Of a DNA stretch of 25,831 bases, positions 1 through 21,676 are shown piece by piece (within the stretch, counting starts at the first letter, position 1; every line of letters begins with the position of its first letter). The DNA is from a virus, in IMG/VR virus record IMGVR_UViG_3300045120_000160, positions 1-25,831 of that record; one strand, given 5' to 3'. The translations under genes were made by a program, and so were the position numbers. Under the pieces are notes generated by a model. That model ran no database searches, was not told the origin of the DNA, and worked only from the letters and a program-made list of their open reading frames with translations.

Positions 1-73
1 GACATATTCGAAGCGAGTGCGCGGGCGCGCGTCCGGGTTCAAACGGTGTTCTGTGTATCTTAGCATCCTATTT

Positions 74-88
74 TTACCTCCAGTGTAA
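74..88. repeat. dispersed palindrome copy 1 (TTACCTCCAGTGTAA)
   Basis: This copy has the outer TTAC...GTAA arms of the dispersed family with a less regular centre. The sequence GTTT and then an ATG at 93 follow it, the same 4-nt spacing as at late-gene starts. Confidence 0.7.
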
Positions 89-92
89 GTTT

Positions 93-179
93 ATGGAACC
101 AGCGACCGGCTGGCACGGTTTTTCTTGTAGAGTTGTATACTTCTGGTTGAACGATTTCAATGACTTACGAACTCTATAA
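93..179 (+). CDS. possible 28-codon mini-ORF or leader peptide
   Basis: This short frame begins MEPATGWHGF and ends LRTL with a TAA stop at 177-179. Its ATG lies 4 nt after palindrome copy 1, the spacing seen at four late-gene starts. The Shine-Dalgarno-like part of the arm is poor here (AGTG instead of GAGG). The frame runs across the first 18-bp direct repeat and ends inside the inverted arm at 170-185. It could be a leader peptide or chance. No family is recognised. Confidence 0.2.
   Translation: MEPATGWHGFSCRVVYFWLNDFNDLRTL
125..142 (+). repeat. 18-bp direct repeat, copy A
   Basis: TTGTAGAGTTGTATACTT is identical to 296-313, 171 bp downstream. A third partial copy (GTTGTATAC) lies at 473-481, 170 bp further on. 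GTAGAGTT at 127-134 is inverted as AACTCTAC at 178-185, so each copy heads a potential hairpin or an array of binding sites. Confidence 0.85.
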
Positions 180-224
180 CTCTACGTCGCAAAAACGACG
201 GCGCGTGTTAGGCGCTGTACAGGC

Positions 225-245
225 GTGCGCGTGACGCACGCGCAC
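225..245. repeat. 8-bp inverted repeat in CG/CA alternating tract
   Basis: GTGCGCGT (225-232) and ACGCGCAC (238-245) form a perfect stem around a 5-nt loop. They sit in a long run of alternating pyrimidine and purine steps that continues to about 273. No gene is visible here. Confidence 0.7.
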
Positions 246-295
246 ATGCGCCCGTGCGCGCGCGAGTGCGCGTAGTGGTTTATATATAAATATAG

Positions 296-313
296 TTGTA
301 GAGTTGTATACTT
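296..313 (+). repeat. 18-bp direct repeat, copy B
   Basis: This is an exact copy of 125-142. Its first ten bases (296-305) are perfectly inverted at 367-376 (AACTCTACAA). Both repeat units also share CGATTTCAA followed by GAACTCTA downstream, at 152-160/169-176 and at 357-365/366-373. The duplicated module is therefore longer than the 18-mer. Confidence 0.85.
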
Positions 314-373
314 AATTGATTGGCATCCAATAAATCGCTGATATTGTTGACGAATTCGATTTCAAGAACTCTA

Positions 374-405
374 CAAGGAACTATACACGAACTGTACGTT
401 CCTTG
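374..405. repeat. 8-bp inverted repeat
   Basis: CAAGGAAC (374-381) is inverted as GTTCCTTG (398-405), leaving a 16-nt loop. The left arm overlaps the inverted copy of the 18-bp repeat, so alternative foldings compete in this interval. Confidence 0.65.
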
Positions 406-430
406 CACCGGCTTAAAGTTGCTGTATGCG

Positions 431-451
431 ATCGCGGCCAGCGAGACATGC
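431..451 (+). repeat. 21-bp direct repeat, copy A
   Basis: ATCGCGGCCAGCGAG followed by ACATGC matches 513-533 at 20 of 21 positions, 82 bp away. A degenerate copy of the dispersed palindrome (about 459-472) lies between the two repeats. Confidence 0.8.
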
Positions 452-512
452 ATGGTAGGTACCTCGGTGTATGTTGTATACGAGCGACTTATATAGAAGC
501 CGACCGTGTACA

Positions 513-533
513 ATCGCGGCCAGCGAGCCATGC
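513..533 (+). repeat. 21-bp direct repeat, copy B
   Basis: This is the second copy of 431-451, differing only at the sixteenth base (C for A). It lies 33 bp before palindrome copy 2. Confidence 0.8.
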
Positions 534-566
534 GCCCCGACGAGTGCGCGGAGCGCATCACAAATC

Positions 567-581
567 TTACCTCGGTGGTAA
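567..581. repeat. dispersed palindrome copy 2 (TTACCTCGGTGGTAA)
   Basis: Flanking bases extend the stem to ATCTTACC/GGTAAGAT (564-571 and 577-584). It lies just beyond the terminator of the minus-strand gene. Confidence 0.85.
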
Positions 582-603
582 GATCCGTGGAAAAAAGAAC
601 GCG

Positions 604-640
604 AAAAAGCCCGGCCACCCTTTCGGGTGGCCGGGCGTTT
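604..640 (-). terminator. rho-independent terminator of the minus-strand gene
   Basis: A perfect 12-bp stem, GCCCGGCCACCC (609-620) with GGGTGGCCGGGC (625-636), encloses a TTTC loop. On the plus strand A runs precede it (604-608, then 591-596), so read on the minus strand the stem is followed by a T run. It lies about 25 bp after the stop of the gene at 661-1395. A short GTTT on the other side allows weak function on the plus strand. Confidence 0.9.
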
Positions 641-660
641 AGGTGGAAGGAAGGCGCGTG

Positions 661-1395
661 CTAGGCGGCCTTCTTGCGTGGCGCGTCATAGAAGGCGGCG
701 GCCGCCTTCGCGTCGTGGCCATTAAGCACAGCCGCGTCGATAAATTTCTGACGCTCGGCGTCCCCCTTCAAGAGCGAGACGATCGGCGCAAGAGCGGTGG
801 CGGCCGCCTTGTACGCTGCGGCATTGGCGGGAAACTCATCAGCCATCTTGTTTAGCTTCTTGACGATAGCATCAAGCGACTTGGTTTCATCAGTCTCGCT
901 TGCGCTAGGCGTCAGAGCGGCGCGCGCGCCCTTTTCGGTCAGCATGTTATCCATATCGTTCGCTTGCGCTCGCGCCACCTTGATAACAGCATCATACGTC
1001 TTGATGCTGTATTCTTTGTCAGCCTTGCGCATGTCACTATCAATGCCGCGAGCGAAAGGAACGATGTCGGGGCGCATCGCGGTGGCGCGAAACACCGCGC
1101 CAACCTCTGACGTCAGTTTGGAAACCGTACCTTCCTGCATGATGTCAGCCTTGCCCAATTGGGCAGTCTGCTTTTCGTTCCACTTTTCCACCGCGTGAGC
1201 GGCAAAGTGCGAGTGTGTCACCTTGCCCTTGCCCTTCGGCGCAACGTGGCGCAATTCCTTGGCCACGTACAATTCCGCCGCCTTGGCGATAAAATCAAGC
1301 TTGGCCATAAGGCCCTTGCCAGCGGTTGCGCCTAAATCCGACAGAACCTTGTCAGCGTTATTGAAGGCGACTTCGCTATTGCTACGCTCAACCAT
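661..1395 (-). CDS. hypothetical phage protein, 244 aa
   Basis: No family is recognised. The product is a soluble, Ala/Lys-rich, probably mostly helical protein with no signal peptide or membrane segment, ending in a basic tail (PRKKAA). The start at 1395 (MVERSNSE) is preferred because GGAAAGG lies 9 nt upstream on the minus strand. An earlier in-frame ATG at 1422 would add nine residues but has no good ribosome site. The gene stands alone on the minus strand with its own strong terminator at 604-640. Dispersed palindromes lie upstream (1457, 1502) and downstream (567), an arrangement typical of an independently controlled phage cargo gene. An internalised virion protein or a regulator are both possible; nothing in the sequence decides. 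Confidence 0.75.
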   Translation of the reverse strand: MVERSNSEVAFNNADKVLSDLGATAGKGLMAKLDFIAKAAELYVAKELRHVAPKGKGKVTHSHFAAHAVEKWNEKQTAQLGKADIMQEGTVSKLTSEVGAVFRATAMRPDIVPFARGIDSDMRKADKEYSIKTYDAVIKVARAQANDMDNMLTEKGARAALTPSASETDETKSLDAIVKKLNKMADEFPANAAAYKAAATALAPIVSLLKGDAERQKFIDAAVLNGHDAKAAAAFYDAPRKKAA

Positions 1396-1429
1396 AGGAC
1401 TAAACCTTTCCAGAGGCAACATTGCCTAC

Positions 1430-1446
1430 ATACTAGGCCTAGGTAT
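1430..1446. promoter_or_regulatory. palindrome upstream of the minus-strand gene
   Basis: TAGGCCTA (1434-1441) is a perfect 8-bp palindrome flanked by ATAC and GTAT, offset by one base. It lies about 35 bp upstream of the ATG at 1395. It may be an operator. No clear -35/-10 pair was seen. Confidence 0.35.
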
Positions 1447-1456
1447 TACTGTGGCT

Positions 1457-1471
1457 TTACTTCAGAGGTAA
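1457..1471. repeat. dispersed palindrome copy 3 (TTACTTCAGAGGTAA)
   Basis: It lies in the gap between the divergent genes starting at 1395 (minus) and 1658 (plus), 30 bp from copy 4. Confidence 0.85.
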
Positions 1472-1501
1472 CTATCTATACTGCGGGCATGGGGCACGGC
1501 C

Positions 1502-1516
1502 TTACCACCGTGGTAA
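1502..1516. repeat. dispersed palindrome copy 4 (TTACCACCGTGGTAA)
   Basis: This copy is a perfect odd-centred palindrome. One more base on each side also pairs (C1501/G1517). The A/T change at the fifth and eleventh bases is compensated on the other arm, which supports selection for symmetry. Confidence 0.85.
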
Positions 1517-1531
1517 GCCAGAGCAGGGCGC

Positions 1532-1566
1532 GGGGAGGGCATCTGGACAGGGGGAGGGGTGGGGGG
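1532..1566 (+). other. G-run cluster (possible G-quadruplex)
   Basis: G tracts of 4, 3, 5, 4 and 6 bases occur at 1532-1535, 1537-1539, 1550-1554, 1556-1559 and 1561-1566. They lie in the 262-bp divergent gap (1396-1657). Apart from these and palindrome copies 3 and 4, the gap shows nothing recognisable. Confidence 0.4.
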
Positions 1567-1657
1567 CCCAGCCTCTTTTAGGGGCTCCGTAAATAGCTGG
1601 CATGAAAAAAGTAAACGCCTACATAGACACACGCCCATAGAGTGCTAAAAAGATTGG

Positions 1658-1975
1658 ATGCGCGCCCCTCTGATCCTTGCCTTCGTTCTTCTCGCCGCCC
1701 CTGCTCACGCCCACTGTTACTCCCACTGGGCCTACCCCTACCCCCAAAGATGTACGCACGGGGTGGACAAGGCGGCCAAGGTGGCCAAGGTGGCCAAGGT
1801 AGATCCAGCGAAGATGAAGCTGGAGCCCATGCGGACAAAGATAGAACGCCCGGTGGCCCCGCCCCCTGCGGTCATCCCGGATATACCCGTAGGCCCGCTC
1901 CCGCCGCTGCGTGAGGAAGAAGAGCACGCGCTGGCCCTGACCGCCCTCAGAAATAACCTAGCAGGGCTGCATTAA
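1658..1975 (+). CDS. small secreted protein, 105 aa
   Basis: The N-terminus is a textbook signal peptide: a basic start (MRAP), a hydrophobic core (LILAFVLLAA), then an AHA cleavage site at about residues 16-18. The mature part has two Cys and is rich in Lys and Pro. An AKV tripeptide repeats three times, encoded by a 9-bp tandem repeat at 1774-1800. A Pro-rich stretch and an acidic Glu run (about residues 85-90) follow. The ribosome site is weak (AAAAAGATTGG). It opens the accessory cassette of exported proteins. Family and function are unknown; export to the periplasm or outside is inferred from the signal peptide. Confidence 0.6.
   Translation: MRAPLILAFVLLAAPAHAHCYSHWAYPYPQRCTHGVDKAAKVAKVAKVDPAKMKLEPMRTKIERPVAPPPAVIPDIPVGPLPPLREEEEHALALTALRNNLAGLH
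1774..1800 (+). repeat. 9-bp tandem repeat, three units
   Basis: GGCCAAGGT is repeated three times in frame inside the small secreted protein gene and encodes Ala-Lys-Val units. Copy number may vary by slippage without breaking the frame. Confidence 0.85.
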
Positions 1976-2051
1976 CGTCTTGTAATCTTCACGGCGCTAT
2001 GCTACCGACAACCACAGCCGCGCTCTGGCGGTTGAATTGGGGAGTACCAAA

Positions 2052-2762
2052 ATGAAGAACGCCCTGCTCATGGCTGCCTCCGCAGCCATTCTCGCGTGCG
2101 CCTCCGCGCCCGCCTCCGCTGCCAACACCGCCCTCACCCTCTGGAACGCAGCCAACCCGGGCGGCGCTGAAACCGCTACCGGCACCGACAGCGCCGATCT
2201 CAACTCGTCCAGCTTCAATGGCGTCAACGTCACCTTCTCGTTCGTCGACCGGACGACCGGCCCCAACAGCCTGACCGAAGGCAACGTGTTCATCACCAAC
2301 ACCACCAACACCGTCCAGGTCCTGCGGATCATCGCAGGCGCTAACGGCTATTTCGGCCCCGACAACCTGTTCAACGCCTCGGGCACGATCCTCACCGCTA
2401 TCGGCGGAGCGGAGCTTGCCGGCTCGTTCTTCGCCGACAACACCAACTTCCTCAACGGCTCCGGCCCGCTCACCGTCACCGGAACCGACATCGCCGACTT
2501 CGACAGCGGGCCGCTCTCCGGGCCGTTCTCGTTCTCGTCCAACGGGACGGCGGCGTTCGCCGTCGGCGCGACCTTCGGCATGGCCGAGAGCCTGACGCTC
2601 ACCCTGCAGCCGTTCGCCTTCGTCGCCGTGCAGTCGATCTCGATGGACGCCGCCAACGCCGTCCCCGAGCCGCGGACCTGGGCGATGTTCGGGATCGGGT
2701 TCGGTCTCATGGCGTTGATGGGCCTCAAGCGCGGCCGCAAGAACCGCCTCGCGACGCTCTGA
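2052..2762 (+). CDS. PEP-CTERM (PEPxxWA type) exported protein, 236 aa
   Basis: The protein has a signal peptide (MKNALL, hydrophobic core, ASA cleavage site near residue 23). An Asn/Thr/Ser/Gly-rich extracellular-type body follows. It ends in a PEP-CTERM sorting tail: VPEPRTWAMF from about residue 204, a hydrophobic segment, then a basic KRGRK end. In known systems an exosortase in the inner membrane recognises the PEP motif, cuts there, and the protein goes to the cell surface or extracellular matrix. The start at 2052 is chosen because GGGGAG lies 7 nt upstream; an in-frame ATG at 2037 would displace the signal peptide. It heads a compact group with the genes at 2765 and 2926. No exosortase is in the window, so processing would depend on the host. 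Confidence 0.85.
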   Translation: MKNALLMAASAAILACASAPASAANTALTLWNAANPGGAETATGTDSADLNSSSFNGVNVTFSFVDRTTGPNSLTEGNVFITNTTNTVQVLRIIAGANGYFGPDNLFNASGTILTAIGGAELAGSFFADNTNFLNGSGPLTVTGTDIADFDSGPLSGPFSFSSNGTAAFAVGATFGMAESLTLTLQPFAFVAVQSISMDAANAVPEPRTWAMFGIGFGLMALMGLKRGRKNRLATL

Positions 2763-2764
2763 TA

Positions 2765-2929
2765 ATGGCTCGCGCGGAGATGTGGAACGACGGCGACGAA
2801 GACTACGACGTCAGCTACCCGCCGCCGCTCCACCCGCTGCGCGAGCTGACGACAATGATTATCGCCGCGCTCCTCGTCCTGGCCCTGGCGGGCTGGGGAG
2901 TGTCGGCCCTCTGGGGACTGTTCAAATGA
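2765..2929 (+). CDS. small single-pass membrane protein, 54 aa
   Basis: The ATG lies two bases after the stop of the first PEP-CTERM gene, and the TGA overlaps the ATG of the second (ATGA at 2926-2929). The translation has an acidic N-terminal half (NDGDEDYD), a PPP turn, then one hydrophobic helix from about residue 31 to 52 (MIIAALLVLALAGWG) ending in GLFK. With no signal sequence and an acidic N-terminus its topology is unclear. Its position, coupled between two exosortase substrates, suggests a role in their export or anchoring; that is inference. No family is recognised. Confidence 0.65.
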   Translation: MARAEMWNDGDEDYDVSYPPPLHPLRELTTMIIAALLVLALAGWGVSALWGLFK

Positions 2930-3768
2930 AAATCAGCACCATCGCTTTCACGGCCGCCTGCGCGGGCGCGCTTGCCGGCTTCGCCGTCAACGACGCTCGC
3001 GCTGCCGGTTCCGGCACTCTGGCCGACCCGATCACCTCCGGCTGCGACGCTTCCGGCTCGTTCTGCATCCTGCCCGGCGGGCCCGACGCCGACGACGTGA
3101 AGATGTTCCTCGACAACGACAAGAACACCGACACCTTCTTTGGCTCGACCACCGGCAATGGCTCGCACTTCACCGACACCATCAAGATCAACACGATGGG
3201 GTTTGTCGACACGTCGAGCGGCTTCGCCACCATCAAGCCCATAAAAGACGGCTTGCTCACCGACGCCCTCTACACCCCGCAGGCTCCGAACCTGTTCGAC
3301 GGCTTCTTCACCCGCGGCCAGCTGGTCTACACGGACCCCAACCCATGCCCTGCCCACGGCCCTTGCGCCGCCCCGGCCGCGCCTCCCGCAGGAGCGACGG
3401 TCCTCATGCAGATCAATGGGACCGGGCCGATCTTCAGCTTCTTCGAGGGGCTGCCCGAGAGCAACGACTTCGCCGACATCGGCATCGACGAGCCGGGCGA
3501 GAACGAGACGCTGGCGGGCCTGATCTCCAGCGTCCACATCTGGGTGGCCACCCCAAATGTTTCGTTCTTCGAGCTCAAGCAGGCCAGCTGGTCGCCGTGC
3601 GAAGGTCTCGACACAGCTTGCGGCCTGGTCATCAACCCGACGGACGGCGCTGCGCCGGAGCCGTCGACCTGGGCGATGTTCATCGCCGGCTTCAGCCTGA
3701 TGGGCGCGCTGGCTTACTTCCGGGGTAAGAAAGCCAGCCCGGCTTCTCCAATTGCTGGAGCTGCCTAA
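2926..3768 (+). CDS. PEP-CTERM (PEPxxWA type) exported protein, 280 aa
   Basis: A signal peptide (MKISTIAF, cleavage after ARA near residue 26) leads into a secreted-type domain with several Cys (for example CDASGSFC after cleavage, and a PCPAHGPC cluster). The C-terminus is a sorting tail: APEPSTWAMF from about residue 243, a hydrophobic segment, then FRGKK and a short Ala/Pro tail. It starts by ATGA overlap with the small membrane gene. The frame is open upstream to 2782, but that extension is arginine-rich and overlaps the real 2765 gene, so it is rejected. Dispersed palindrome copy 5 lies in the codons just after the hydrophobic segment (3714-3728). Its function at the surface is unknown. 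Confidence 0.85.
   Translation: MKISTIAFTAACAGALAGFAVNDARAAGSGTLADPITSGCDASGSFCILPGGPDADDVKMFLDNDKNTDTFFGSTTGNGSHFTDTIKINTMGFVDTSSGFATIKPIKDGLLTDALYTPQAPNLFDGFFTRGQLVYTDPNPCPAHGPCAAPAAPPAGATVLMQINGTGPIFSFFEGLPESNDFADIGIDEPGENETLAGLISSVHIWVATPNVSFFELKQASWSPCEGLDTACGLVINPTDGAAPEPSTWAMFIAGFSLMGALAYFRGKKASPASPIAGAA
3714..3728. repeat. dispersed palindrome copy 5 (TTACTTCCGGGGTAA)
   Basis: It lies inside the second PEP-CTERM gene, spanning the AYFRGKK codons at the end of the sorting tail. It shows that this cassette carries the same element as the phage late genes. Confidence 0.85.
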
Positions 3769-3937
3769 AAGCGCCTGGGTCACATCCGCAGGGATCGTGA
3801 CCCTCGCTGTTTCCCTGGGAGCCCGCCACGCCACCGGCGGCCCCAGCGCCCTCGAACCGCTCGCCGCGGTCACCAGCTGGGCGGGCGCGCTCCTGATCAT
3901 CGTGGGGCTCGGGATGATGTTCTTTCTCGAGAGTTGA
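3752..3937 (+). CDS. possible small two-helix membrane protein, 61 aa
   Basis: A short frame beginning at TTG (3752) overlaps the end of the second PEP-CTERM gene by 17 bp. It encodes two hydrophobic segments, about residues 9-24 and 40-58 (ending MMFFLES). No ribosome site precedes the TTG; GTG at 3797 is an alternative start but would remove most of the first helix. The frame ends 53 bp before the terminator stem at 3991, consistent with a last gene of the cassette. It may be a small anchoring or holin-like protein, or a chance frame. Confidence 0.4.
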   Translation: MLELPKSAWVTSAGIVTLAVSLGARHATGGPSALEPLAAVTSWAGALLIIVGLGMMFFLES

Positions 3938-3990
3938 AGACCTGACGGGTTCTATGGCGTTCAAGGCCCCCTACGAGCGCCATGAACGGG

Positions 3991-4027
3991 GCCGCCGGCC
4001 CAGATCCCCATTGGGCTGGCGGCTTCC
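3991..4027 (+). terminator. terminator of the PEP-CTERM cassette
   Basis: GCCGCCGGCCCA (3991-4002) pairs with TGGGCTGGCGGC (4012-4023) with one G-T wobble around a 9-nt loop, followed by TTCCTTT. It lies between the plus-strand cassette and the end of the convergent terminase gene (stop at 4041). The T tract is interrupted, so efficiency is uncertain. Confidence 0.65.
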
Positions 4028-4040
4028 TTTCCCAATTCGG

Positions 4041-5492
4041 TCAAGTCCAGCCGGCGGCCGTTATCCGCTGCTCCGGCGACGTCCCGTAGCGCCTGTTCAT
4101 CCCCCTGATCCGCACCGCCATCGCGGGGTTTATCCCGTTCTGCACTGAGCAGGCGACATACTGCAGGTCGTCGTGCGGATGAGAGTAATCTCCGTTGTCC
4201 TTATCAGGCGTGGGCTTGGCCTGCCCGTGCCTCGTATGCGCGAAGCGGTAGCCCCCGGAAAACCCGCGCACCAGCGTGGGGCAGCGCTTCTTGTCGATCA
4301 GGAGCGCCGGGCCGGCGTTCGACGCGGCGATCAGGAAGCTCTCCACCGCCCTTATCCGCGGGTCGATGTCGTTGGTCGGCGCTGGGACGGCGTTGAAGCC
4401 GGCGCGCGCCAGCAGGTCGAACGCGGTTTCCTCGTAGAGGCTGTCCCTAAACCTTCCCGACGGGTCGCCGACGACAAGCGTGGGCAGGCCCATGTATCGC
4501 TCCTGCGCCATCGCCGGCCTCAAGTTCTGCCTTAAGTGCAGCTCGAGCCCGACGTCGCCGGGGACTTCCTCCAGCACGAGAAGTCGCCCTTTGCTGTCGA
4601 GCTGGCAGACGAGAGACCATGGGTTCCGCCCAAAATCCTGGCCGACGATGAGCGGAAGCCCCGGGTTGGGCTGAAGCTCGTCGGTGACATGCCAGTGCAG
4701 CTTGAAGGTCTCTTTGTAGACGGCGGTCCCGCTAGGGTCGTCGCCGTATTCAGCGTCGACATACCGGCGTCTCCAGGCGGGCGAGTGCTGTCGTGCGAGC
4801 CGCTCATAGTAGGTCCTCCCCTGGGCGATCCTCTTTTCGTCCGTCACCGGCAGCTTGATGGTTTCGGGCGTCTGGAGCAGGTTCGCCAGGTTCTCCGCGC
4901 CCACCGAAAGCCCGCCCGGCTGCTTCCACACGTCCCAGTCGGGAGGTTTATTCAGCTCCAGAAGCTCGTGCCACTCGCCGCCCTCGGTGGGGAAGTTGCC
5001 GTCGGCGATGATCCCGAACCAGCTGGCCCCGCCCGCGGCGGAGGGCGGATAGCGTCCGACACGACCCGCCATCGCAGGGAAGAGCGCCGGGTCGATCTCG
5101 GGGAATTCGTTGACCCAGATCCCGGTCAGCTGGGCCGACAGAAGCCTTTGTTGATCTCTTTCATCGTCTAACGGGATTAGATAAATCTCGCTGACGATGT
5201 CGCGCCACTTGAGGTGGATGGTGCTCTCGCTCACCCTGAAGTCTGTTACCGGGGCCACCCATGTATAAAACTCTTTCAAGACGGTTAATTTGATTTGTTG
5301 TAAAGTAGCACGAACAATAGCAAAGCGGGTACGTCGTATTCCATCAGGTCCTTTAGTTTGCTGTTGTGCTCTTTTAATTATCTCCATTAAACAACCAGTC
5401 GATTTACCACTACCAACTGGCCCCATTATTAGCCTGCAGAACGCTTCACTCTTCATAAAGCGTCCGATCGTGGGCGTCGCCGAATAGATCAT
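4041..5492 (-). CDS. terL: terminase large subunit
   Basis: This is the ATP-driven motor that threads DNA into the prohead through the portal and cuts it. Its 483 aa show an ATPase Walker A GPVGSGKST at residues 24-32 and a Walker B-like GIWVNEFPE at 124-132, with Glu129 as candidate catalytic residue. A C-terminal RNase H-like nuclease has acidic motifs GQDFG (Asp286), VGDPSG (Asp343) and HDDLQY (Asp441/442). The ATG overlaps the TerS stop (ATGA, 5489-5492), so the two are translationally coupled. DNA encoding the Walker A region (about 5271-5460) is unusually AT-rich compared with the rest of the gene. The pair is transcribed opposite to the portal and all other structural genes. Confidence 0.93.
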   Translation of the reverse strand: MIYSATPTIGRFMKSEAFCRLIMGPVGSGKSTGCLMEIIKRAQQQTKGPDGIRRTRFAIVRATLQQIKLTVLKEFYTWVAPVTDFRVSESTIHLKWRDIVSEIYLIPLDDERDQQRLLSAQLTGIWVNEFPEIDPALFPAMAGRVGRYPPSAAGGASWFGIIADGNFPTEGGEWHELLELNKPPDWDVWKQPGGLSVGAENLANLLQTPETIKLPVTDEKRIAQGRTYYERLARQHSPAWRRRYVDAEYGDDPSGTAVYKETFKLHWHVTDELQPNPGLPLIVGQDFGRNPWSLVCQLDSKGRLLVLEEVPGDVGLELHLRQNLRPAMAQERYMGLPTLVVGDPSGRFRDSLYEETAFDLLARAGFNAVPAPTNDIDPRIRAVESFLIAASNAGPALLIDKKRCPTLVRGFSGGYRFAHTRHGQAKPTPDKDNGDYSHPHDDLQYVACSVQNGINPAMAVRIRGMNRRYGTSPEQRITAAGWT

Positions 5493-6088: not shown

Positions 6089-8245
6089 ATGGCTGTGGAA
6101 AGCTTGCCTCAACGGGGAGTGTTGCGGGTTGTCTCGCCCGGACAGCTTTCCGCCTCCATGCAACAAGCTGCCGAGCAGAAAGCGACGCTCTCGTCGCCGA
6201 CCGATCCGCAGGTCGTCAACGCCCTTAGCCAGTTCATCAAAACCCAGTACGACATCATGCGCCGGCACAGGGACACTGTGGCGGCCGGGTGGTCTGAGAG
6301 ACTTCTCTCAGCCATGCGGATGTTCAACGGCGTCTACGACGCCACCAAGCTGCAGGAGATACGCAAATTCGGCGGCTCCGAAGTCTATGCGCGCATTGTC
6401 TCCATGAAGTGCAGAGGAGCCTCTTCCCTCTTACGCGACATTTACCTCGGCCCCGAAAGGCCCTGGGGCCTCTCGCCCGACGAAGACCCCAACATCCCGC
6501 CGGAAATCCTCGACGCGATCAGGACGCTGGTCACTCAAGAGAGTGACACGCTCTCGCAAACGGGCGCGCCGCCGCAGCCCGACAAGATCCGCGATCGCGT
6601 GACGATGCTGATCGAGGCCGCGCGCGACGCTGCCAAGCGACGAGCCAAGGACCAGGCGAAGATCTCCGAGGAGAAGCTCGACGAGATCCTGGTCGAGGGC
6701 AAGTTCTATGACGCGTTCGCCGAATTCCTGACCGACCTGCCTCTATTCCCCTACGCCGTCATCAAGGGGCCCGAAGTCCGGATCGTTCCGACCGTCAGCT
6801 GGCAAGGCCAGCGCGCCACCACCGCCAACAAGCCTCGTCTGTTCTGGAAGCGCTGCTCGCCGTTCGACGTTTACTGGACGCCCGGGGTCGCGAACATCGA
6901 GGACGCGAACGTCATTGAACGCACCAGGGTGACGCGCGCCGACATCAACGATCTGCTCGATCTTCCGGGCTACGATGTCGAGGCTGTCAGAAATGTTCTC
7001 GAGGCTTACGGCCGCGGCGGCCTCCAGGACAACTGGGATACAACCGATGCCGAACGCGCAGTCCAGGAGAACCGCGAAAATCCGAACTTCAACCAGAGCG
7101 GCTTGATCAGCTGCCTCGAATTCCACGGAAACGTGCAGGGCCGGACGCTCCTCGAAGGCGGCTTCCCGCCGGCGCAGATCGAAGACCCACTGCGAGATTA
7201 TTTCGTGCAGGCGTGGATGATCGGGCCCTACGTAGTGAAAGTACAGATGTCGCCGTCGCCCAGAAAGCGCCATCCGTACTACTCCACGAGCTTCGAAAAA
7301 GTCCCCGGGACGCCGGTTGGAAACGGTCTCCCCGACATCCTGAGCGACATTCAGGAAGTCGCCAACGCCACGCTGCGATCGCTGGTCAACAATCTCAGCA
7401 TCAGCTCAGGTCCGCAAGTCGTCATCCAGGTCGACAGGGTCGCGCCCGACGCCGACATCCAGAACCTCTACCCGTGGAAGCGCTGGTTGGTGACGAGCGA
7501 TCCCATGGGCAACAGCGCCCAGAAACCCGTCGACTTCTTCCAGCCCAACAGCGTCGCAGGCGACCTGATCCAGATTTACGGAAAGTTCAGCGACCTGGCC
7601 GACGAAATGTCCGCCATTCCTAAATACCTCTCGGGTAACTATTCCGGCGGAGCCGGTCGAACCGCTTCGGGTCTCGCCATGCTGATGGGCAACGCGAGCA
7701 AGATCCTGCAGACGGTGGCCGCCAACATCGACCGCGACGTCATCAAGCCGGCTCTCGACGTGCTCTACGACATGGTCATGCTTACCGATACTTCGGGGCT
7801 TCTTACGGGCGAAGAGAACGTCCGCGTGATGGGCGTGCAGGTCGCCGTGCAGAAAGAGACCATGCGCGCCCGCCAGATGGAGTTCCTGCAGGCCACGGGC
7901 AATCCGATCGACATGCAGATCATCGGCCCGCAAGGCCGTGCGTCTGTACTCAGGAGCGTGGCGCAAGGGATCGGTCTCGACGGCGAGGACATTGTTCCGA
8001 GCGAGAGCGAGATCCAGCAGAAAATGAACGCGGCTCCTCCTCCCGGCGGGCCGCCAGGCGCGCCCGGGCGGCCCTCCCCGCCCGGCGTGACGCCGGATCC
8101 GGGCGCGGGAGGTGGTGGATCCCAGCTCCCGCCCGGGGCTCAGAAAGAAATGCACCAGGCGGCGAACCCGCCGCAGCGCAACGACGCAAACTCGGGCATG
8201 TCGCGCGGCGGCATGGTCGACATGCAGCACACAAACATCACTTAG
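6089..8245 (+). CDS. portal protein
   Basis: This protein would form the dodecameric ring at the head vertex through which TerL loads DNA and to which connector proteins attach. At 718 aa it is in the size range of podovirus head-tail connectors. Visible features are a charged helical N-terminal half with PFDVYWTPGVANIEDAN (about residue 260), a central NGLPDILSDIQEVANATLRS helix (about 410-430), and GAGRTASGLAMLMGNASKIL (about 530-550), resembling the conserved helix region of such portals. A Pro/Gly-rich low-complexity tail spans about 648-690. It is the first gene of the plus-strand late operon, starting 42 bp from the divergent terS. Its ribosome site is poor (ATAGAAAACC). A degenerate palindrome copy lies at about 7624-7638. 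Confidence 0.85.
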   Translation: MAVESLPQRGVLRVVSPGQLSASMQQAAEQKATLSSPTDPQVVNALSQFIKTQYDIMRRHRDTVAAGWSERLLSAMRMFNGVYDATKLQEIRKFGGSEVYARIVSMKCRGASSLLRDIYLGPERPWGLSPDEDPNIPPEILDAIRTLVTQESDTLSQTGAPPQPDKIRDRVTMLIEAARDAAKRRAKDQAKISEEKLDEILVEGKFYDAFAEFLTDLPLFPYAVIKGPEVRIVPTVSWQGQRATTANKPRLFWKRCSPFDVYWTPGVANIEDANVIERTRVTRADINDLLDLPGYDVEAVRNVLEAYGRGGLQDNWDTTDAERAVQENRENPNFNQSGLISCLEFHGNVQGRTLLEGGFPPAQIEDPLRDYFVQAWMIGPYVVKVQMSPSPRKRHPYYSTSFEKVPGTPVGNGLPDILSDIQEVANATLRSLVNNLSISSGPQVVIQVDRVAPDADIQNLYPWKRWLVTSDPMGNSAQKPVDFFQPNSVAGDLIQIYGKFSDLADEMSAIPKYLSGNYSGGAGRTASGLAMLMGNASKILQTVAANIDRDVIKPALDVLYDMVMLTDTSGLLTGEENVRVMGVQVAVQKETMRARQMEFLQATGNPIDMQIIGPQGRASVLRSVAQGIGLDGEDIVPSESEIQQKMNAAPPPGGPPGAPGRPSPPGVTPDPGAGGGGSQLPPGAQKEMHQAANPPQRNDANSGMSRGGMVDMQHTNIT

Positions 8246-10798: not shown

Positions 10799-11788
10799 AT
10801 GGCATATCCCGTTTCCGGTACCCCATATCCGTCTGGCTCACCTGTAGCGACGCCGCCTTACTCGGGGACGTTCATCCCTGAAATCTGGTCGGGCAAGCTG
10901 ATCGAAAAGTTCTACGCGGCCACAGTGCTCGCGGCGATCTCGAACACCGACTACGAAGGCGAGATCAAGAACCATGGCGACAAGGTGCAGATCCGCACCA
11001 AGCCGACCATTCAGATCAATGACTACCAGGCCGACATGCCGCTCGCAGCTCAGCGCCCGGCGTCCGCCAACGTCACCCTGACGATCGACAAGGGCAAGTA
11101 TTTCAACTGCATTCTCGACGACGTGATGGAGATCCAGAGCGACATCAATATGATGTCGATGTGGTCTGACGACGCCGGCGAGCAGATGAAGATCGTCATC
11201 GACCGGCAAGTGCTCGGGGCGTCCGCCAACGGCGGGATCCTGCATCAGTCCGACGTCAAGAACATGGGCGTCGCTGCGGGTGCGGTCACCGGCAACATCA
11301 ACCTGGGAGTGACTGGCACGCCAGTGACCGTCGTCCCGCGCAACCCCACCGCTGGTCAGATCGAAATCACCGACATGGTCCTGCGGATGGGCCAGGCGCT
11401 CGACGAGCAGAATATCCCTGAAACAGGCCGATGGGTCGTGATCCCGACCTGGGCCGCCACCATGATCAAGAAGAGCGAGCTTCGCGACGCTGCGTTGACC
11501 GGCGACGGGGTTTCCATCCTGCGGAACGGCCGGCTGGGAATGCTCGACCGCTTCACGATCTACTCGTCGAACCTGCTCCCCAGCGGCGTTGCTGGCGGCT
11601 TGGCGGCCGGCGAATACGTGATGTATGCGGGCCATGCCCACGGCCTCACGTTCGCCTCGCAGATGACCAAGCTCGAGACCCTCCGCTCCGAGATGACCTT
11701 CGGCACCCTTCTCAGGGGCCTTCAGGTGTTCGGGACCAAGGTGCTCGACGGCAAGGCGATCTCGGAAGCGATCGTCGTCGGAGGCTGA
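10799..11788 (+). CDS. major capsid protein
   Basis: The 329-aa product has the pattern of HK97-fold coat proteins of environmental podophages. An N-terminal arm contains FIPEIWSGKLIEKFYAATVLAAI (about residues 24-46). A charged loop (NTDYEGEIKNHGDKVQIRTKP) precedes a helix-rich core (DDVMEIQSDINMMSMWSDDAGEQMK), and the C-terminal domain includes RWVVIPTWAATMIKKSELRDA and an ending with FGTKVLDGKAISEAIV. The gene follows the scaffold after a 40-bp gap, with AAGGG about 9 nt before the ATG. It would form the icosahedral shell. A palindrome follows its stop, before the first connector gene. Confidence 0.9.
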   Translation: MAYPVSGTPYPSGSPVATPPYSGTFIPEIWSGKLIEKFYAATVLAAISNTDYEGEIKNHGDKVQIRTKPTIQINDYQADMPLAAQRPASANVTLTIDKGKYFNCILDDVMEIQSDINMMSMWSDDAGEQMKIVIDRQVLGASANGGILHQSDVKNMGVAAGAVTGNINLGVTGTPVTVVPRNPTAGQIEITDMVLRMGQALDEQNIPETGRWVVIPTWAATMIKKSELRDAALTGDGVSILRNGRLGMLDRFTIYSSNLLPSGVAGGLAAGEYVMYAGHAHGLTFASQMTKLETLRSEMTFGTLLRGLQVFGTKVLDGKAISEAIVVGG

Positions 11789-13484: not shown

Positions 13485-13795
13485 CGTTGATCGCCCGATA
13501 CAACAAAACGCCGCTCGAGCGTCGGCAGCTGAAGTTCGATTATTCGAACTGGCTGTGCGACAGCGAGACCCTACGGAATTTCAACACCGAGGTTGAGCCG
13601 CAGCAGGACGACATTGACCCGACGCCGCTGACCGTCGACAGCGTGTTCGTGGTCAGCCCGACGGTGGCGAAGTTCTTCGTTCAGGGCGGCACCGAAGGGT
13701 TTCAGTACCGAATTCGTCTGCTTGCGCTGACCAGCGCTACCCAGCTCAAGGAGGACGGCGTCCTCTTCAACATTACACCCGGGGTAAGCGGATGA
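13478..13795 (+). CDS. putative fibre-tail adaptor protein, 105 aa
   Basis: The start at 13478 (MVALIARYNK) is preferred because GGGGA lies 7 nt upstream; ATG at 13463 in the same frame is possible. The product has KTPLERRQLKFDYSNWL near the start. The later part reads PLTVDSVFVV, KFFVQGGTEGFQYRIRLLALTS and EDGVLFNI, an immunoglobulin-like beta pattern seen in phage fibre-tail adaptor proteins. It lies just before the first fibre gene, which fits. Palindrome copy 10 spans its last codons, and its TGA overlaps the next ATG. Confidence 0.6.
   Translation: MVALIARYNKTPLERRQLKFDYSNWLCDSETLRNFNTEVEPQQDDIDPTPLTVDSVFVVSPTVAKFFVQGGTEGFQYRIRLLALTSATQLKEDGVLFNITPGVSG
13773..13787. repeat. dispersed palindrome copy 10 (TTACACCCGGGGTAA)
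   Basis: It spans the last codons of the adaptor gene. GGGG in its right arm lies 7 nt before the ATG at 13792, making it the likely ribosome site of the fibre gene. Confidence 0.85.
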
Positions 13796-16322: not shown

Positions 16323-16594
16323 TGGGCGTCACCGAGGAAGCTGGCAAGGTTGGGCAAGCGGCGGTCAGCGCGATGGCCTCGACGCCGCTGGCGATCGCTT
16401 TGCTCGTGGTGAACGTCGGCTTTCTCGGTTTTGCTGGCTATGTGCTCGGTGAAGTCGCCGCCAACGCTTCCGAGCGTAACAAAGGCCAGATGGACCTGAT
16501 CGCCAAACTCGTCGGCGACATCCGCGACTGCCGCGGCGGGGTGCATCCGGACAAGTCCAGCCTGATTTATTATCCGCCGAGCCCGCTCGAATGA
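16322..16594 (+). CDS. holin-like small membrane protein, 90 aa
   Basis: The ATG overlaps the fibre stop by one base and the end overlaps the endolysin start (ATGA). One hydrophobic helix (about residues 22-44, PLAIALLVVNVGFLGF) is flanked by a short charged N-terminus and a longer polar C-terminal part (GQMDLIAKLVGDIRD). Coupling to an M15 peptidase gene is the main reason to call it a lysis protein. A holin or a pinholin-type protein are both possible; a spanin is less likely because no lipobox is seen. Confidence 0.65.
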   Translation: MGVTEEAGKVGQAAVSAMASTPLAIALLVVNVGFLGFAGYVLGEVAANASERNKGQMDLIAKLVGDIRDCRGGVHPDKSSLIYYPPSPLE

Positions 16595-17040
16595 CCAAGC
16601 TCACGACGCATTTCAGCTTGGAGGAGTTCACGGACAGCCAGACTGCGGCGCGCCGGGGCATCGACAATATGCCGGCGGACAGGAGCGATGAGATGAAAAA
16701 TCTCCAACGCACCGCCAAGACGATGGAGAAGGTTCGGAACGTCCTTAACAACGAGCCGATCTTGATCAGCTCAGGGTACCGCAATCAATGGCTCAACTCG
16801 GCGATCGGCGGGGCCAAGAACAGCGCCCACACGCATGGGCTTGCGGTCGACTTCACTTGTCCTGGCTTCGGTACGCCGCTCGCGATCTGCAAGGAGCTCG
16901 AACCGCACATGAAAGAGCTTCAGATTGACCAGCTCATCCATGAGTATAATACCTGGGTGCATCTTGGTCTGAGGGACAGCGCGCCGCGTCACGAGGCCCT
17001 GACCATCGACACGAACGGCACGCGGCTCGGCTTTGCTTAG
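16591..17040 (+). CDS. endolysin, M15-family D,D- or L,D-peptidase, 149 aa
   Basis: The protein is a single M15-type zinc peptidase domain without signal peptide. It shows FSLEEFTDSQTA at the N-terminus, LISSGYRNQWLNSAIGG (about 58-74), the zinc motif SAHTHGLAVDF with His80 and Asp87, the candidate catalytic Glu118 in LIHEYN, and the second His124 in WVHLGL. Such enzymes cut peptide stems of peptidoglycan. The gene directly follows the holin-like gene by ATGA overlap, the classic lysis pair. Palindrome copy 11 lies just after the stop. The long virion protein at 23314 carries a second M15-type domain. Confidence 0.9.
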   Translation: MTKLTTHFSLEEFTDSQTAARRGIDNMPADRSDEMKNLQRTAKTMEKVRNVLNNEPILISSGYRNQWLNSAIGGAKNSAHTHGLAVDFTCPGFGTPLAICKELEPHMKELQIDQLIHEYNTWVHLGLRDSAPRHEALTIDTNGTRLGFA

Positions 17041-19471: not shown

Positions 19472-21676
19472 TTGACGGCAGTCACAAAGATCGAACCGAC
19501 CTTCAGCCGCAAAGGGCTGTTCGCTGCGGTTCCGTCGCCCCAATCGTCGGTCGAGGGGCTGCTCAATGTCGTCGAGGCGCTGAAGATCGACGTCGAGCAA
19601 CTCATAGGCACGCGCGGCACCAACAGCACTTCGGCGGTGCTGTTCGGCGATCTGACCGGCCCGATGGACGCTCTCAAGGATAGTCTCGGAGGAGGCGGGG
19701 GAGGGGGAGGGTCAGGGCCGCCAGGGCCAGCTGGTCCGCCGGGACCGACAGGCGCGACAGGCCCAGCTGGGCCCAAGGGCGCGACAGGCGCAACGGGCGC
19801 GACAGGCGCAACCGGCCCGCAAGGCAGCCCCGGCCCGGCAGGTGCAGCTGGTCCGACTGGTCCGGCAGGCCCGACAGGGCCGCAAGGAGCGGCCGGCACC
19901 GGTATCAACGTCAAGGGCCAGGTGGCGACGGTCGGCGATCTGCCGATGACGGGGAACGCCGACGGCGACGCTTACATCGTCCAGTCTACCGGCGACATGT
20001 GGATCTGGGACGCCGAGACCGGGGCCTACATCAACGCTGGCCCGATCCAGGGCCCAAAGGGAGACACAGGGCCTGCTGGCCCGGCAGGTCCAACAGGCCC
20101 CACCGGCCCGCAAGGCGCGCAGGGCCCGATAGGCTTGACCGGCGCGACCGGCGCGCAGGGTCCGAAGGGCGACATTGGCGACACCGGCCTGACCGGGCCG
20201 CCAGGAGCGACGGGCGGTGTTGGCCCGGCTGGCCCGCAAGGCCCCATAGGCTTGACCGGCGCGACTGGCCCGCAGGGCCCGATAGGCTTGACCGGCGCGA
20301 CCGGTCCAGCTGGCGCTGACAGCACGGTCCCCGGCCCGACTGGGCCGCAAGGCCCCATAGGCTTGACCGGCCCGCAGGGCGCGAAAGGCGACACCGGCCT
20401 AACTGGGGCGACGGGTGCGACCGGCCCAGCTGGCGCTGACAGCACGGTCCCCGGCCCAGCAGGTCCGCAAGGCCCGATCGGTCTTACCGGCGCTCAAGGC
20501 CCGAAGGGCGACACTGGTCTTACCGGCGCTACTGGTCCAGCCGGCGCAGACAGCACGGTCCCCGGCCCGACCGGCCCGCAAGGTCCGATTGGTCTCACTG
20601 GCGCGACTGGCCCAGCAGGTCCGCAAGGCATACCGGGCACGGCTGGGGCGACCGGCGCGCAAGGCCCCAAGGGCGACACTGGCCTGACTGGCGCTACTGG
20701 TCCAGCTGGCGCGGATAGCACGGTGCCGGGACCGACAGGCCCGCAAGGCATACCGGGCACGGCTGGGGCGACCGGCCCCCAAGGGCCGAAAGGAGACACG
20801 GGTGCGACCGGCGCTACCGGCCCTGCTGGCAGCACAGTGGCGTCAGGCGTCACGTTCACGCCCACGGGCAACGTCGCTGCGACGAACGTGCAGGCCGCCA
20901 TTGCTGAAGTGGACAGCGAGAAAGTCGCCAAGGCCGGCGACACGATGACTGGCAGCTTGACCATCAACACGACGGGGCTTTCCCAGCTCGACCTTTGGCG
21001 CGTCGTCGGTCAGCGCGCCAACATCCGGGTCTTCGACCGGGCGTCGGGCACGCTTCGCTGGACAGACATCGTCGGCGATGAGACCGCTGAAGGCGGCTCC
21101 AACGCCGGGTCGAACAGGCAGCTGTACGCTCACGACGACACCGGGGCTGCGCTCGGCACCGTCTATTCGATCAATCGCGCGGCACGCACTTTCACGTTCA
21201 CCAACCAGCCGGTGATCCCCGGTTTCGCCACGCTTGCTTCGCCGACGTTCACCGGCGATCCGAAAGCGCCGACGCCCCTAGCCAGCGATAACGACACCAG
21301 CATCGCCACCACGGCGTTCGTGACCAGCGCGATTTCGACGGCGGGCGCGGGCTACGTTCACGACACCGGCGACACAATGACCGGCAATCTGAAGATCTCG
21401 GTCGCCAATGGCGCACTCGGTCTGTTGGTGGCAGGGCCGACCAAGGCGGCGCGCTTTGTAAGCAGCGCCGGCGGCTTCTCCATTGAAGGCGTCGATCAGA
21501 CCGGAGTGGGCTCATATCAGCCACTGTCGCTCATGGGGTCAGCGATCAATATCAATGCGCCCGTTACGGTTCTGGCGAACACGACCTTCACGCTTGGGCA
21601 AGACCCGGCGCTCGCCATGCAGGCGGCGACCAAGCAATATGTGGATAATGTCACTCTCGATGCCGGGACATTCTGA
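19472..21676 (+). CDS. collagen-like tail fibre protein, 734 aa
   Basis: The start is TTG, supported by GGGAG 6 nt upstream inside palindrome copy 12. An N-terminal attachment region (about residues 1-72) and a poly-Gly hinge (73-80) lead to collagen Gly-X-Y repeats at about 82-143 and 193-453. The two blocks are split by a non-collagen module (144-192, with [16 protein letters not shown]). The second block contains four copies of an ADSTVPGP interruption flanked by [10 protein letters not shown]-type units. The C-terminal fibre region (about 460-734) has two GDTMTG units, SPTFTGDP, and AATKQYVDN before the end LDAGTF. Phage collagen-like segments form trimeric rods. The stop overlaps the next ATG. 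Confidence 0.88.
19712..20830 (+). repeat. collagen-coding imperfect repeats
   Basis: Dense imperfect repeats of 9-bp Gly-X-Y codons span this stretch, including larger blocks around GCCCGATAGGCTTGACCGG and four copies of the ADSTVPGP-coding unit (about 20317, 20437, 20548 and 20716). Such DNA can recombine and change rod length. It is broken by a unique segment at about 19901-20047. Confidence 0.8.

Follow-up and report, generated by a model that had tools for sequence, protein, structure and literature searches.

Why would a phage carry two genes whose products end in the sorting tail of exosortase substrates? PEP-CTERM proteins are treated as bacterial biofilm or exopolysaccharide proteins, and this locus raises the questions of whether its two candidates are genuine, whether they belong to the phage and how they might serve it. 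The window, as the whole stretch of DNA analysed here is called, spans an entire IMG/VR record (25,831 bases) from a virus of soil-type bacteria; it is a linear fragment, and the two genes (henceforth PEP1 and PEP2) lie near its left end.

Two secreted PEP-CTERM proteins encoded in a tight operon

The initial annotation had assigned both proteins a signal peptide and a PEPxTWAM tail, and both assignments hold. Sec-type signals, read from the sequence, end in AxA (...APASA before AN in PEP1, ...NDARA before AG in PEP2), and the C-terminal tails read VPEPRTWAMFGIGFGLMALMGLKRGRKNRLATL in PEP1 and APEPSTWAMFIAGFSLMGALAYFRGKKA... in PEP2. Against the Pfam PEP-CTERM model (cut-off 20.7), PEP2 scores 24.5 bits and PEP1 20.6 bits, the latter 0.1 bit below the cut-off; PEP1 is above the cut-off of TIGR02595 (18.3 vs 16). 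With the stricter PEPxxWA-CTERM model NF035944 both PEP1 (20.3 bits) and PEP2 (29.1 bits) stay below the cut-off of 35, and this model is matched at E<=0.01 by 23/23 members of F1, the phage family that includes PEP1. A degenerate DNA pattern for the tail finds exactly two sites in the window, the PEP1 and PEP2 tails; 100 shuffles give 0.00. Across viral loci, a crude score detects a Sec-like signal in 141 of 150 complete tail genes as against 120 of 761 other genes. By predicted signal and tail, PEP1 and PEP2 are real secreted PEP-CTERM proteins rather than chance likenesses.

The structure model of PEP1 gives a beta-sandwich mature domain (pLDDT 85); that of PEP2 (pLDDT 35) is unusable. A fold search with PEP1 returned jelly-roll or CBM-like matches whose TM scores do not exceed about 0.5, a level that does not allow sugar binding to be concluded from fold likeness. 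The F1 mature domain has no Pfam family match, the tail alone matching, and contains no catalytic domain.

On the plus strand, PEP1, a 54-aa ORF, PEP2 and a 61-aa ORF follow each other tightly and are succeeded by a hairpin (Table 1). A homologue of the 61-aa ORF stands directly after the PEP pair of another phage locus, L051 (43-49% identity, 5e-6). The arrangement had been described as convergent with terminase before a terminator: the convergence is confirmed, and in place of a clear terminator there is a strong hairpin with a weak T run that a simple terminator scan did not list. No sigma-70-like site was found upstream of the operon, and no integrase was seen in the window; relatives do have one. 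Just 5' of PEP1 lies a gene for a secreted 105-aa protein (1658-1975, AHCYSHWAYPYPQRC...), and short secreted proteins resembling its product are encoded in L051 (6372-6611) and L059 (2518-2796), with a weak match in L041. The left end of the window is AT-richer and holds GTAGAGTTGTATACTT at 127-142 and again at 298-313, as well as AACTCTAC at 178 and 367, so that it looks like a repeat-rich control region. At the other side of the window, collagen-like Gly-X-Y repeats (19695-20830) lie inside a probable tail fibre gene (19472-21676).

Table 1. Features of the PEP operon and its surroundings, with members of a small membrane protein family from other phage loci
Feature	Position	Strand	Remarks
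PEP1, secreted PEP-CTERM protein	2052..2762	+	236 aa; ATG 2052; signal 1-23, beta-sandwich mature domain, tail 204-236; phage family F1
PEP1 PEP-CTERM sorting tail	2658..2759	+	VPEPRTWAMF + hydrophobic helix + RGRKNR
54-aa one-TM ORF	2765..2929	+	Stop overlaps PEP2 start (ATGA); homologue in phage locus L033 (53% identity, 2e-6)
PEP2, secreted PEP-CTERM protein	2926..3768	+	280 aa; ATG 2926; relatives in phage contigs L062, L076, weaker L058
PEP2 PEP-CTERM sorting tail	3652..3765	+	APEPSTWAMF...FRGKKA
Palindrome copy, 15 bp, TTACYNCSGNGGTAA	3714..3728		Inside PEP2
61-aa ORF, hydrophobic small membrane protein	3752..3937	+	TTG start; overlaps PEP2 end
Hairpin, possible terminator	3984..4030 (about)	+	Between operon and convergent terminase; -31.8 kcal/mol, z -2.3; weak T run
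Terminase large subunit	4041..5492	-	Convergent with PEP operon; context, outside cassette
Small-subunit-like terminase gene			Window
Portal	6089-8245	+	Window
Major head protein	10799-11788	+	Window
M15 endolysin	16591-17040	+	phrog_894; 13 kb from PEP genes
Two-TM family, examples	L088 2213-2377; L142 2561-2725; L037 10081-10206; L136 5762-5887; others

Relatives of the PEP proteins in uncultivated phages

We searched IMG/VR contigs for a DNA pattern that encodes PEPxTWAM and obtained at least 119 stretches; among the matches listed, 115 loci carry a true C-terminal tail (helix and basic end). Clustering of the mature parts alone defined, again among the matches listed, families F1 (about 27 members, PEP1 included), F2 (17) and F3 (16), with PEP2 in a small family. 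The mature part of PEP1 shares 56-64% identity with phage loci L035, L051, L079 and L096. In 11/12 tested cases, genes found by the F1 profile sit well inside phage records of 20-78 kb (for example at 47.4 kb of 78 kb and at 31.4 kb of 44 kb), and the settings of F2 and F3 are similar.

The initial annotation had proposed a search for such tails near terminase genes of other phages, and they do occur there: the PEP gene and terminase are also convergent in L055, L070 and L075, and PEP neighbours match terminase PHROGs 2, 38, 4758 and 5573 and portal PHROGs 1216 and 146; further neighbours are helicase, DNA polymerase, RecE, Erf and endolysin. Because these terminase and portal neighbours differ, several unrelated phage lineages carry PEP genes, and by these comparisons the number of unrelated uncultivated phages with relatives of PEP1 and PEP2 is in the dozens at least. 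Within the portal-1216 lineage, F1 or F2 in turn occupy the slot beside the same portal and terminase. A gene that runs antisense to both of its large neighbours shows the classic sign of a moron; only a minority of the PEP genes (34/121) do so. Provirus-like records with genome-type IMG identifiers, which we take to be isolate genomes, have the PEP gene antisense among genes that we likewise read as tail, lysis or head genes (L194, L097, L178). Another provirus-like record, IMGVR_UViG_2751185896_000001, holds four PEP-CTERM genes in L166 and one in L171, near an apparent terminase gene.

Pairing recurs as well. Adjacent PEP genes were found in nine phage contigs of a first set (the window, L028, L035, L037, L051, L058, L096, L105 and L136), with more in a second set; the first gene belongs to F1, and at least four types occur as its partner. 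A common motif close to FxE(I/L)K(H/Q)IE(F/I)S suggests that the PEP2 type and the L028/L037/L136 type form one wider family. Moreover, a family of small two-TM proteins (about 45-55 aa, ...LSLxxWRLTGN...) occurs 15 times, always on the same strand and less than 200 bp from a PEP-CTERM gene, and has no PHROG match. The 61-aa ORF of the window was considered as a member and rejected, the match being insignificant.

Phage ownership of the PEP genes

The homologues in other phage contigs, the recurring layout and the distinct terminase and portal lineages make it well supported that the PEP genes belong to the phage, as the initial annotation had argued. Part of that argument was a palindrome copy inside PEP2, and the copy is real: TTACYNCSGNGGTAA gives 24 strand-matches in the window vs 0.05 expected, at 567, 1457, 1502, 3714, 5551, 8994, 10100, 13773, 17045, 19454, 22980, 24398 and 24657, thus spanning both sides of the window, 1-4040 included, and it is present twice in the close relative L006. 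The copies at 13773, 17045 and 19454 stop 4-5 bases short of a start codon, and the GGAGG/GGGG core of the palindrome could therefore serve there as the ribosome site; the palindrome is a possible operator or translational control element.

In phages related by portal the terminase/portal arrangement is conserved, and other cargo, integrases included, takes the place of the PEP genes. The PEP genes are missing from these relatives, as expected of cargo, the nearest relative (L006, 90% portal) being too short to cover the place; they thus lie inside a phage genome and are absent from relatives, a pattern expected of a moron. A search for related loci with PEP1 alone or terminase alone as query found nothing. 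The two Bradyrhizobium that hold the nearest prophages by portal have no PEP gene beside the prophage, and exosortase is absent from both.

Cellular sources were sought with the F1 profile, which does find phage records. It gave 0 matches in genomes of the Bradyrhizobium family group (297), of the class to which that group belongs (385), of an order in which several members have an exosortase (299) and of a further family (18), the alphaproteobacterial samples being small at about 1,000 genomes; two of the exosortase-positive groups searched for hosts held only 1 and 18 genomes. F3 had 0 matches in 270 genomes, and PEP1 none in plasmids. The PEP1 family was thus not found as host genes in these small alphaproteobacterial samples, and it may have a distant cellular ancestor.

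A chimera of host and phage DNA, raised at the outset for positions 1 to 4040, is ruled out by homologues deep inside independent phage contigs, by the convergent PEP/terminase layout of other contigs and by the phage palindrome throughout that interval, with one copy in PEP2. That an assembly error joined the genes to the phage from host DNA, or that they are the host flank of a provirus, is accordingly scarcely credible: the linear window with its PEP genes near the left end would allow it, and host flanks are possible among some IMG/VR matches, but the same three observations speak against it, as does the absence of F1 from the alphaproteobacterial genomes sampled.

Processing and selection

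Exosortase (PF09721) was present in 51/385 alphaproteobacteria sampled and in 0/50 PEP-carrying phage records. Because none of these phage records encodes the enzyme, processing would depend on the host, and it is sound to expect from the tails that a host exosortase would process PEP1 and PEP2, although the two Bradyrhizobium with the nearest prophages lack the enzyme.

In F3, dN/dS of the mature domain is about 0.05-0.18 (dN about 0.05-0.10 at dS 0.5-2), and dN is in most cases higher in the tail; a comparison of PEP1 with its closest relatives gives dN/dS of about 0.4. Since the F3 mature domain is constrained while its tail mostly drifts faster, the exported part appears to be what is selected; judged by these rates it is under constraint, most clearly in F3.

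A probable surface module that would borrow the host exosortase

We consider it probable that the PEP operon is a surface-remodelling accessory ('moron') module that borrows the host exosortase. The PEP1, mini-TM, PEP2 and mini-TM genes, laid out in this order, would be transcribed from their own strand against terminase; PEP1 and PEP2, which carry the signals for it, would be exported through Sec; the PEPxTWAM tail would be retained in the inner membrane for cleavage by the host exosortase. By analogy with bacterial PEP-CTERM proteins, the mature beta-sandwich domains would then reach the exopolysaccharide or outer surface of the infected or lysogenic cell, where they might benefit the phage by changing the matrix, aggregation or access to receptors; the foremost candidates are exclusion of superinfecting phages and altered aggregation. 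The small membrane proteins may act as partners or may have a membrane function of their own. A superinfection block or a change of biofilm by the PEP proteins, put forward in the initial annotation, is thus a plausible hypothesis. We suggest more tentatively, and would not presume, that one or two phage-specific PEP-CTERM proteins with a mini membrane protein form a shared mobile surface module of uncultivated phages with exosortase-positive hosts, which would move between unrelated phages and coat or re-wire the exopolysaccharide surface as a general exclusion or matrix-control system.

Other roles have to be weighed against surface remodelling. The exported tail-anchored proteins and their small membrane companions could be late lysis or release accessories that help virions through the envelope or exopolysaccharide, and we keep this role open because lysis genes adjoin PEP genes in some phages: the distance from the PEP gene is 93-866 bp for an M15 endolysin in L033, L056, L061 and L108 and 226-407 bp for an N-acetylmuramidase in L090 and L145, holin-like genes often stand alongside, and small two-TM proteins are found beside PEP genes. 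It is nevertheless unlikely, given that the endolysin of the window is remote from the operon, that the portal-1216 lineage has its PEP gene by portal and terminase, and that F1 is devoid of a catalytic domain. An exosortase decoy, which would saturate the host enzyme and deprive the cell surface of the host's PEP-CTERM proteins, themselves possible receptors, would suit two substrates from one operon and tails that stay intact while the partner protein differs between phages. Such a decoy needs the tail alone, yet in F3 strong purifying selection acts on the mature domain, and the tail mostly changes faster; we disfavour a decoy for this selection pattern and regard it as improbable.

Host-derived genes in transit, conferring no phage-specific benefit, would fit the frequent occurrence of PEP-CTERM genes among soil bacteria (Haft et al., 2006, PMC1569441), but the phage families were not found in the sampled cells, the pairing and the slot recur, and purifying selection acts, so that passive cargo is highly improbable. 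A role as structural or decoration proteins of the virion would suit the place of the PEP1 and PEP2 genes beside packaging genes. A Sec signal and a membrane tail would take them from the cytoplasm, where virions are assembled, and there is no structural PHROG match; we rejected PEP1 and PEP2 as virion proteins on these grounds, and this role is extremely improbable.

Relation to known systems and significance

PEP1 and PEP2 resemble bacterial substrates of the PEP-CTERM/exosortase system (EpsH, Xrt; PF07589, TIGR02595, NF035944; PMC1569441) in signal peptide, C-terminal PEP motif, hydrophobic helix, basic end and soil setting. They differ in being encoded by a phage, in an F1 mature domain that lacks a Pfam match and was not found in the sampled cellular genomes, and in that exosortase was found in none of the 50 phage records tested. 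PepA of Aquincola and Zoogloea, which is involved in floc formation, with fewer released and more bound polymers, is likewise an exported PEP-CTERM protein and offers a model for how one may act; joining of mature PEP-CTERM proteins to surface or matrix has been proposed for floc-forming bacteria (PMC9850573). Unlike the PEP genes, PepA is chromosomal, RpoN-controlled and near prsT (PMC9850573), and PEP1 matches NF033554 weakly, far below the family cut-off (20.6 vs 80).

Closest in logic is SasX, a protein borne by the staphylococcal prophage phiSPbeta and sorted by a host enzyme through LPXTG and sortase, although SasX belongs to Gram-positive bacteria, uses sortase A, is placed in the cell wall and has an unrelated tail type (PMC8655729). 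Phage surface exclusion proteins such as the Ltp lipoproteins (PMC3952083; reviewed in PMC11436027) are also prophage-expressed and exported and act at the surface against other phages; these are anchored as lipoproteins or in the membrane, and the review mentions neither PEP-CTERM nor sortase.

Searching 50,697 isolated phage records with PEP1, PEP2 or representatives of F1-F3 gave no meaningful match (two chance matches, E 3), and a generic 32-aa tail query, a short hydrophobic sequence that may be masked, found nothing among isolated phages. In open-access PMC text we found no paper describing phage-encoded PEP-CTERM proteins. Such proteins thus appear, from sequence comparison, to be common in uncultivated phages, with neither a match in the isolated phage records searched nor a report in open-access papers. 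If processed as predicted, PEP1 and PEP2 would be a Gram-negative counterpart of phage-borne sortase substrates, would tie exosortase biology to phage-host conflict, and would provide defined genes for testing PEP-CTERM function and phage control of biofilm surfaces. The PEP module points to an overlooked way in which phages may remodel the surface of the infected cell.
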